Shown one piece after another: positions 5,506 to 37,888 of a stretch of DNA of 37,888 nt; within the stretch, counting starts at the first letter, position 1, and every line of letters starts with the position of its first letter. This DNA is from an uncultured beta proteobacterium (GTDB lineage Bacteria; Pseudomonadota; Gammaproteobacteria; Burkholderiales; Burkholderiaceae_C), in NCBI GenBank assembly GCA_903876715.1, contig CAIRBF010000059.1, forward strand, positions 1 through 37,888, read 5' to 3'. The notes under the pieces were generated by a model, which made no database searches, had not been told where the DNA came from, and was given only the letters and a program-made list of their open reading frames with translations. The position numbers and the translations under genes were made by a program.

Positions 5506-8332
<2,827 letters not shown>

Positions 8333-34097: not shown

Positions 34098-36440
34098 ATG
34101 AGTTCTGACGCAGTCCCCATGACCGTAGCCGCTCCCACCCTCAGCGTGGCCGTCTCCGCTGAGGCATTCACAGGCATCGACGAACCCGAAGAGGTCGCGC
34201 GCTACACCCGCTGGGAAAGCGGTGCCGATGGCCGCAGACGTGGCGTTTCCGCCTTCCAGCTATCGGGCTTGCACTGCGCCGCCTGCGCCGGGCTCATCGA
34301 GGACGCGCTCGAGCGGGTTGCGGGCGTGGAGGCCGCTCGAGTCAGCGCAGGTGCGCGCCGGGCCCTGGTGCGCTGGGATCCCGAGCGCGTTCGTCCTTCG
34401 GACCTGCTGACGGCCGTGAGCCGGGCCGGCTACAGCGCCGCGCCCGACGTGGCGGCCGCCGCACGTGACTTGCGGCGCGACGAGCACCGTGCTGCACTGT
34501 GGCGGCTGTTCGTCGCAAGCTTTCTCGCGATGCAGGTGATGATGCTGGCCACGCCCTCGTACGTGGCCGCCGACGGCGACCTGTCAGACGACCTTCGCAA
34601 CCTTCTGAACTGGGGCAGCTGGGTGCTGAGCGTGCCCGTGCTGTGGTTCTCCGGGATGCCCTTCCTGCAAGGTGCCTGGCGTTCGCTGCGCTCGCGCCGG
34701 ATCGGCATGGACGTGCCCGTGGCCTTGGGCCTCACCGCTGCCTTCGTTGCCAGTTCGGCCGCCACGTTCGACCCCTCGGGAATCTGGGGTCGCGAGGTCT
34801 ACTTCGATTCGTTGACGATGTTCCTGGCCTTCCTTTGGCTCGGCCGCTACCTGGACATCCGGGCGCGACACCGTGCCGCGCTGGCGCTGGAGTCGGCGCT
34901 CGACGCCCTGCCGCAGACCGCATGGCGCGTGCGGGTTGATGGTGGCATCGACGTGGTCAGCGTGCACCGGCTTCAACCAGGTGACCGGGTGCGGGTGCCT
35001 GCAGGAGGGGCCGTGCCGGCCGACGGCGCCCTGCTGAGCGCCGGAGCCGACGTCTCCGAAGCCCTGGTGACGGGCGAATCTGCTGCCGTGGCGCGCCGTA
35101 CAGGCGAGCCGCTGCTTGCCGGCAGCTTCAACGCCGGCGCTCCCTTCGAGTTCCGGGTGGAGCGCGTGGGCGCCGACACACGCCACGAGGCCATTCTGGC
35201 CCTGATGCGCGAGGCCCTGACCCAGCGCCCGGCGGCTGCGGCGCTGGCTGACCGCTGGGCTGGGCCCTTCCTGTGGGCCGTGCTCGTGCTGGCTGCCGCA
35301 AGCGCTGCGGCATGGAGCCTGTTCGACCCCACGCGCGCGGTCGCGGTCGCGGTGGCCGTGCTGATCGTCACGTGCCCCTGCGCACTGTGGCTGGCCACGC
35401 CCGCAGCGCTGGTGGCTGCGGCGGGTGGCCTGGCGCGCCGCGGCGTTCTGTTGCGTCGTCTCGACGCGCTGGAGGCCATGGCCAACATCGGACAAGTGTT
35501 CGTCGACAAGACAGGCACGCTGACCGAGGACCGATTGCGCGTGGCCGGTACGCGGCTGCTGCACACCGCCACTGAATTTGGCGTGGGCGACGCAGACCAG
35601 GCCCTGGCGTTGGGCGCGAAACTTGCGCAGTGGTCGACCCATCCGGCTTCACGGGCTCTGGTCGACGCCGCTGCTGCGCTGACTGACACAGCCCCCGTGG
35701 CCTGGCCGTGGGTCGACGTGGTCGAGGTGCCGGGTTGCGGCCTGGAGGCGCGCGATCCCAAGGGGCAGTGCTGGCGCCTCGGGCGCCCTGAGTGGGTAAG
35801 GGAAGGGCGCCGCAGCCCGCAGACGAGCACCGCGGCGGACCGCGCCGAGCCCACCGAGCATCTGGTGCTTGCGTGCGAAGGGCAGCTTGTGGCCGACATC
35901 ACGCTCACCGAGGTGCTGCGCGACGACGCCCGCTCCACCGTGCAGGGATTGCGCGACCTGGGCATGCGCGTGGTGCTGTTGTCCGGGGACGCACCACATC
36001 GGACGCAGGCGCTGGCAAGCACGATCGGCTGCGACGCGGTGCGGGCCGGCGTCGATCCTGAGGGCAAGCTGCAGACACTGCGCGAGGCGCGCGCTGCCGG
36101 CCGGCCCGTGGCGATGGTCGGCGATGGCTTGAACGACGCGCCAGTGCTGGCGGCCGCCGATGTCTCGATAGCAATGGGCCATGGCGCGCTCGCCGCGCGC
36201 GAGGCGGCAGACGCCGTCGTCGTCAGCGGTCGGCCATCCGGTGTCCTTGACCTGGCGCGGGTAGCGCGTCGAACACGCGCGATCATGAGCCAGAACATGA
36301 CCTGGGCCGTGGCCTACAACGCAGCCAGCATCCCATTGGCGATTGCCGGATGGATGCCTCCATGGGCGGCGGGTCTGGGCATGGCGGGCAGTTCCTTGCT
36401 GGTGATCCTGAACGCCCAACGGGCGGGCGGCCGCTGCTGA
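34098..36440 (+). CDS. ccoI: Copper-transporting P-type ATPase for cbb3 oxidase (CcoI/FixI)
   Basis: CcoI is a P1B ATPase that supplies copper for the CuB centre of cbb3 oxidase, moving it across the inner membrane. The 780-aa protein has one N-terminal heavy-metal domain (LSGLHCAACAG, C60 and C63), then membrane helices, TGES at 325-328 of the actuator domain, the CPC metal motif TCPCALWLATP at 425-435, the phosphorylation site DKTGT at 470-474, STHPAS (the HP motif of P1B pumps), LSGD and GDGLNDAP. The cysteine-rich N-terminal segment seen in some family members is absent. It is followed by ccoS after 6 bases and by ccoN, supporting this assignment over a general copper exporter. Confidence 0.93.
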   Translation: MSSDAVPMTVAAPTLSVAVSAEAFTGIDEPEEVARYTRWESGADGRRRGVSAFQLSGLHCAACAGLIEDALERVAGVEAARVSAGARRALVRWDPERVRPSDLLTAVSRAGYSAAPDVAAAARDLRRDEHRAALWRLFVASFLAMQVMMLATPSYVAADGDLSDDLRNLLNWGSWVLSVPVLWFSGMPFLQGAWRSLRSRRIGMDVPVALGLTAAFVASSAATFDPSGIWGREVYFDSLTMFLAFLWLGRYLDIRARHRAALALESALDALPQTAWRVRVDGGIDVVSVHRLQPGDRVRVPAGGAVPADGALLSAGADVSEALVTGESAAVARRTGEPLLAGSFNAGAPFEFRVERVGADTRHEAILALMREALTQRPAAAALADRWAGPFLWAVLVLAAASAAAWSLFDPTRAVAVAVAVLIVTCPCALWLATPAALVAAAGGLARRGVLLRRLDALEAMANIGQVFVDKTGTLTEDRLRVAGTRLLHTATEFGVGDADQALALGAKLAQWSTHPASRALVDAAAALTDTAPVAWPWVDVVEVPGCGLEARDPKGQCWRLGRPEWVREGRRSPQTSTAADRAEPTEHLVLACEGQLVADITLTEVLRDDARSTVQGLRDLGMRVVLLSGDAPHRTQALASTIGCDAVRAGVDPEGKLQTLREARAAGRPVAMVGDGLNDAPVLAAADVSIAMGHGALAAREAADAVVVSGRPSGVLDLARVARRTRAIMSQNMTWAVAYNAASIPLAIAGWMPPWAAGLGMAGSSLLVILNAQRAGGRC

Positions 36441-36446
36441 GCGTCG

Positions 36447-36629
36447 ATGGACATCCTCTACCTGCTGATTCCGCTGTCCGCGGTGCTCGTACTCGCCATC
36501 GTCGCCATCTTTGGCTGGGCTGTCCACAGCGGTCAGTTCGATGACCTGGAGAGCGAGGGCGAGCGCGCGCTCCAAGCGCAGGACGAGCCCGAGGAGCTTG
36601 ACCGAGGTCAAGGCCAAAACGGGGGGTAG
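36447..36629 (+). CDS. ccoS: cbb3-type cytochrome oxidase assembly protein CcoS
   Basis: CcoS is a small single-span membrane protein needed for cofactor insertion into cbb3 oxidase. The 60-aa product begins MDILYLLIPLSAVLVLAIVA, one transmembrane helix, followed by the family signature FGWAVHSGQFDDLESEGERAL. The C-terminal tail is short and hydrophilic. It sits 6 bases after ccoI, with 126 bases to ccoN. The family is known for very short proteins, and this length is normal. Confidence 0.95.
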   Translation: MDILYLLIPLSAVLVLAIVAIFGWAVHSGQFDDLESEGERALQAQDEPEELDRGQGQNGG

Positions 36630-36755: not shown

Positions 36756-37888
36756 ATGGCAGAGCAGAGGCAGGGCGGCATGGCCGCCTATTTCGATACA
36801 CCCGTGCGCTGGTTTGCGTTGGCCGCAGTGTTGTGGGGCGTGGTGGGGATGCTGGTGGGCGTGATCATCGCCGCCCAGCTTGCGTGGCCGGAGCTCAACC
36901 TGGGCATTCCCTGGCTGAGCTACGGGCGGCTGCGGCCGCTGCACACGAATGCAGTGATCTTCGCTTTCGGCGGAAGTGTCCTGTTCGCCACCGCTTATCA
37001 CGTGGTGCAGCGGACCTCCCAAACCCGGCTGTTCGCGCCGAGCCTTGCCTTGTTCACGTTCTTTGGCTGGCAGTTGGTCATCCTCCTGGCAGCGCTCACG
37101 CTGCCGCTGGGCATCACCTCGGGCAAGGAGTATGCCGAGCTCGAGTGGCCGATCGATCTGCTGATCGCGGTGGTATGGGTGGCGTTTGCCGTTGTGTTCT
37201 TCGGCACCGTGGGCACCCGCAAGGTACGCCACATCTACGTTGCAAACTGGTTCTTCGGCGCGTTCATCATCGCGGTGGCGCTGCTGCACATCGTCAACAG
37301 CGCGGCGATCCCGGTGACCTTGACGAAGAGTTATTCGGCATACGCCGGCGTGCAGGACGCGATGGTGCAGTGGTGGTACGGGCACAACGCGGTGGGTTTC
37401 TTCCTCACCGGTCACGGAGATATTCCGACCACCGTGCAGGCGAGCTTCTTCGAGGCCAAGAGCTACTCCATCTATTCCGGCGTGCAGAACGCGCTGGTGC
37501 AGTGGTGGTACGGGCATAACGCCGTCGGCTTCTTCCTGACCGCGGCGTTCCTGGGAATGATGTACTACTTCATCCCGAAGCAGGCCGGCCGGCCGGTGTA
37601 TTCCTACCGCCTGTCGGTGGTGCACTTCTGGTCGCTGATCTTCATGTATATCTGGGCCGGCCCGCACCACCTGCACTACACGGCGCTGCCCGACTGGTCG
37701 CAGACGCTGGGCATGGTGTTCTCCGTGATCCTGTGGATGCCCAGCTGGGGCGGCATGATCAACGGGCTGATGACCCTGTCGGGCGCGTGGGACAAGCTGC
37801 GCACCGATCCCGGGCTGCGCTTCTCCGTCACCGCCGTGGGCTTCTACGGCATGAGCACCTTCGAGGGACCGATGATGTCCATCAAGGA
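36756..37888 (+). CDS. ccoN: cbb3-type cytochrome c oxidase subunit I, with internal duplication (3' truncated by window)
   Basis: CcoN is the catalytic haem-copper subunit of cbb3 oxidase, the high-affinity terminal oxidase. The frame stays open from the ATG at 36756 to the window end (377 codons seen). Early family features include [14 protein letters not shown] and the low-spin haem histidine in [12 protein letters not shown]. The [12 protein letters not shown] pair (CuB ligands) and [11 protein letters not shown] follow later. Residues 191-218 and 235-262 are near-identical copies (24 of 28 residues) of the segment KSYS...[13 protein letters not shown], which carries another CuB-ligand histidine, separated by 16 residues unrelated to the usual protein. 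Normal CcoN has this segment once, so topology and function of this allele are doubtful. Confidence 0.9.
37326..37541 (+). repeat. Diverged in-frame duplication inside ccoN
   Basis: Bases 37326-37409 and 37458-37541 (84 nt each, offset 132) match at 69 positions by hand count (82%), and the encoded peptides at 24 of 28. Most differences are in third codon positions. The 48-nt linker 37410-37457 encodes [16 protein letters not shown]. Confidence 0.9.

Follow-up and report, generated by a model that had tools for sequence, protein, structure and literature searches.

A doubled ccoN segment at a contig end, best explained as an assembly chimera

We take one histidine of the conserved CcoN segment studied here to be a ligand of CuB, in line with the metal ligand roles that we assume for this protein. 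The solved CcoN 3mk7 (chain A) has the segment once, and each of the 240 proteins listed in our searches likewise holds a single copy, in agreement with an earlier note on this DNA, according to which known CcoN proteins carry the segment once. Chimeric contigs of metagenome assemblies have been benchmarked as well. In one benchmark, MEGAHIT is reported to give 22.15 chimeric contigs per genome versus 2.63 for SPAdes (PMC11261854). In another, misassemblies were much rarer with MEGAHIT than with IDBA-UD (PMC7881036), which counts against the explanation favoured below.

The stretch of DNA analysed here, hereafter the window (37,888 nucleotides), is an entire contig, C59. The draft genome to which it belongs comprises 505 contigs and 5.58 Mb, with a completeness of 98.2% and a contamination of 4.3%. 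Positions 1–141 of the window are identical to positions 7634–7774 of contig C275, over exactly 141 bases; the two contigs are neighbours in a single assembly graph. The opposite end of C59 holds a ccoN gene in which the conserved segment is present twice. This doubled segment is very probably an assembly chimera at the contig end, and not a new kind of protein.

The doubled segment and its surroundings

The ccoN gene of the window occupies a single open frame, which begins close to 36756 and is still open at the window end; the contig stops in the middle of the gene at 37888, 478 bases past the junction. Both copies of the segment lie within this frame (Table 1). Each is 85 nt long, their spacing is 132 bases and their identity is 82%. 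When the 28 codons of the two copies were compared, 15 were identical, nine differed synonymously and four changed the residue, with 15 of 84 bases differing, and the linker between the copies measured 16 residues. Recomputation on the window therefore bore out the description in the earlier note of two diverged 28-codon copies in one frame, with their spacing, identity and linker. An alignment of copy 1 to the tail covered 66 bases at 89% (E = 5.3e-18), far above chance.

The window protein matched 3mk7 chain A (E = 5.8e-173) as two pieces. Query residues 10–218 followed chain residues 7–215, and query residues 235–377 followed chain residues 188–330. The window differs from the solved protein in that both alignments overlap at chain residues 188–215, that is, on a segment which the solved protein possesses only once.

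Table 1. Features of the window at and near the ccoN gene
Feature	Positions	Strand	Basis
P-type ATPase gene, presumably of ccoI/copA type given its position beside ccoS; native neighbour of ccoN	34098..36440	+	Open reading frame; gene order in relatives
ccoS (presumed)	36447..36629	+	Translated; precedes ccoN in relatives
Native 5' part of ccoN (head and copy 1)	36756..37410	+	91% to L005; tree; C364 overlap
Copy 1	37326..37410	+	37344-37410 identical to start of contig C364
Junction stretch, 34 bases	37411..37444	+	Alignment starts in other genomes
Foreign tail, alphaproteobacterial-type ccoN fragment cut by contig end	37445..37888	+	97.2% to P0002; tree; best DNA 86%
Copy 2	37458..37542	+	Belongs to foreign tail; protein identities and tree

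The two-copy form among relatives

The nearest named relatives of the window CcoN query were mostly Burkholderiales, and on this basis we assign the genome to that order. Among 170 fetched related loci, which include four pairs of the same or near-identical sequence and some gene fragments at contig ends, none had two copies of the motif in one frame. The distance from the end of the head to the start of the copy was determined for the 80 related loci of named genomes: it was 0 in 75 of them and 6, 15 or 30 bases in the other five, and 132 bases in none. A few related loci (L087, L104, L110, L111 and L129) show additional residues immediately ahead of the KSYS segment, so that length varies naturally at the position of the window's linker.

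A pseudogene, or a duplicated ligand helix inherited in the group as a genuine lineage feature, would be another reading, for which the open frame is all that speaks. In the search of relatives, 33 of 40 genomes matched, and among the matches listed only the window's own spans both copies. A junction-centred protein search (residues 180–262) gave matches that, among the best 120 of 8000, covered at most 48% of the query, i.e., one copy. Together with the counts of zero in 170 loci and in 240 listed proteins, and with a tail that derives from another class (see below), these results make a pseudogene or lineage feature exceedingly improbable. The inherited two-copy CcoN was accordingly rejected as a natural lineage variant, and the earlier note's concern that many related species might share the form did not materialize in any of the 170 loci.

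Some other irregularities of ccoN came to light in these comparisons. Protein P0001, a partial CcoN from an Alphaproteobacteria MAG at NCBI (3006-base contig), has an apparent internal duplication at residues 278–308 and 396–426; this resembles another chimeric join, independent of the one in the window, in a conserved part of ccoN. Three genomes of the same genus carry an additional, diverged ccoN (G001:C80, G005:C26 and G013:C136; 64–66% to the window head) beside the usual one. Locus L060 (CALPYQ020000188.1) lies on a contig titled Singulisphaera, presumably a planctomycete label, and its ccoN resembles those of Comamonadaceae; the bin is probably mislabelled or contaminated.

Ancestry of the two sides of the junction

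Head and tail have different closest relatives. The head, taken as the 190 residues that precede copy 1, shares 91% identity with the same-genus locus L005, while the window tail from copy 2 on is only 78% identical to it. Over 143 residues, this same tail has 97.2% protein identity to P0002, and it is 93–97% identical to P0003–P0011. The window head shares 51–57% identity with P0002–P0011 (55% with P0002). Eight of the 120 tail-type protein matches listed have an organism name, and all eight are alphaproteobacterial (Alphaproteobacteria, Stellaceae, Rhodospirillales, Elstera, Rhodovastum); the class of the remaining rows, P0002 to P0008 included, was assigned from these named ones. GC3 was 0.858 for the head, 0.937 for the tail and 0.902 for contig C364 (described below), and did not tell the parts apart.

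Separate trees of the two halves, a check proposed in the earlier note, were built by maximum likelihood from 45 rows for the head and 46 rows for the tail. The rows were chosen from fetched sequences and comprised 20 of Burkholderiales type and related and 24 of alphaproteobacterial type, the class of some again being assigned. Support for the split between the Burkholderiales-type and alphaproteobacterial sets was 100/100 in the head tree and 100/99 in the tail tree. The window head grouped with L005 and L006 (100/96), and C364 fell inside the Burkholderiales-type set. The window tail fell inside the alphaproteobacterial set, where its place beside P0002 and P0003 was poorly supported (86/80). 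By these identities and trees, in which the class of some rows is assigned from named ones, the sides of the junction come from different organisms, and sequence comparison places the tail in another class than the head.

Since the tail is from another class, a recent tandem slip was rejected, as the synonymous divergence of the copies had already suggested in the earlier note. The same note had proposed a chimera between two ccoN lineages or paralogues. The identities and trees uphold the two lineages; paralogues are contradicted by the different classes and by the presence of one head in the genome.

An exact donor of the tail was not found among the genomes searched, and the best DNA match reached 86% (genome G800). 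The DNA searches covered 399 genomes of the window's order, 398 of the phylum (E <= 1e-120) and 17 of the order of G430 (E <= 1e-125); the protein searches took in the orders of G612 (397 genomes) and G438 (61 genomes), at E <= 1e-84. In alphaproteobacterial-type genomes the alignments to the tail begin at tail base 35 or later, and in three genomes from the order of the window they begin at tail base 24 or 25, with gaps. The linker words tested were present in none of the 240 listed proteins. Across these DNA alignments and listed proteins, the 34 junction bases had no clear match to either lineage; they may be donor-specific or part of the faulty join.

The partner contig and the origin of the join

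The earlier note had also suggested a search of the genome for a second ccoN. Run with the window CcoN, this search returned a single head and two tails, that of the window itself and a second on contig C364. The latter contig begins inside ccoN at its own end. Read in the direction of ccoN, its first 67 bases are the last 67 of copy 1, and the next base differs. Past the overlap, C364 continues with the remainder of an ordinary single-copy ccoN (AGFLGMMYYYIPKQAERP...), followed by ccoO, ccoP and ccoG, and it is 95% identical to L005. In four related loci (L005 and L006, both of the same genus, L068 and L056), the C59 head and C364 adjoin with an overlap of exactly 67 bases and no gap; in L005 the C59 head ends at 2146 and C364 starts at 2080. 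In the same four loci, the window tail maps back onto copy 1 at 79–81%, and therefore the second copy appears. The gene order that C59 and C364 would give together, ATPase-ccoS-ccoN-ccoO-ccoP-ccoG, all names at these loci being our presumption, is complete in 47 of 80 related loci; in the others, outer genes are missing or the ATPase is located elsewhere. By these alignments, the C59 head and C364 belong together, and C364 is the proper continuation of copy 1 elsewhere in the assembly. A CcoN truly bearing a second CuB-ligand segment, as the earlier note had envisaged, is not supported, given this continuation and the lack of two copies in all relatives examined.

A second ccoN of the same genome was considered as the source of the tail and rejected, the only other long match to the tail being C364, at 79% DNA identity. 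A 26-base match to contig C18 falls where the CcoN motif is absent and was taken as chance.

Could the fused gene nevertheless be real? Part of the living population might have joined a Burkholderiales-type ccoN head in frame to an alphaproteobacterial tail, thereby doubling the CuB-ligand helix, with C364 stemming from normal cells. The frame is indeed open across the junction, an outcome with a chance of about one in three. However, the genome has one head, so that C364 would be left without its own; the contig ends 478 bases past the junction; the fusion was seen in none of the 170 related loci; and the donor would be from another class. We regard a real recombinant as very unlikely. Template switching during library preparation, with chimeric molecules made at the bench and faithfully followed by the assembler, appears highly improbable too. 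The junction does follow a stretch that ranks among the most conserved in the gene, with 13 residues unchanged between both sets, yet a switch at homology would continue past the shared segment instead of repeating it, and a rare molecule would need to outcompete the true path. The earlier note had left open a real recombinant gene, a pseudogene or an assembly join; C364, the trees and the absence in relatives favour the assembly join by far, at the expense of the other two.

Under an assembly chimera, the native ccoN of the Burkholderiales-type genome would run from 36756 to 37410 of the window and continue on C364. C59 would have been wrongly extended, at the highly conserved CuB-ligand helix, by about 478 bases of an alphaproteobacterial ccoN whose source was presumably in the same sample. 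This extension would begin upstream of the shared segment, and the segment would therefore be present twice. Points that weigh against this explanation, besides the second benchmark, are the size of the C59/C364 overlap, the 34 junction bases with no clear match, the frame that is open across the junction, the GC3 values and a best DNA match of 86% for the tail.

A fixed end overlap is typical of de Bruijn graph assembly, and MEGAHIT has a default largest k of 141 and a local-assembly step. From the 141-base overlap of C59 with C275 we infer that the assembly was made with MEGAHIT. The overlap of C59 with C364 is 67 bases and not 141, and the join is therefore not accounted for by simple branching of the graph at the last k. 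An ordinary branch of this kind was thus rejected, which argues against one joining mechanism only. End overlaps were compared among 27 sequences, namely C59, C364 and 25 more of the 505 contigs (15 of 41 fetched were left out for masked letters, and six of those kept were compared by one end); the only pair found was C59/C364. The join would then have been made by the assembly software at a step earlier than the last k, probably during contig-end extension with reads recruited at the conserved helix.

As biology, the doubled ccoN segment is probably of no importance. It does call for caution, in that pieces of a conserved gene that are wrongly joined can mimic an in-frame duplication with synonymous divergence. 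Even without reads, such joins can be recognized once the partner contig is located and the relatives of each side are compared, and genes cut by contig ends are worth the same check before they are named as new variants. C59 resembles the inter-species chimeric contigs that arise when metagenomes are assembled from short reads (PMC11261854, PMC7881036) in its flanks of different taxa, the nearby contig end and the partner contig in the same bin. It differs from them in that its join steps back over a conserved segment, and so takes on the appearance of a duplication within one frame whose copies have diverged synonymously.
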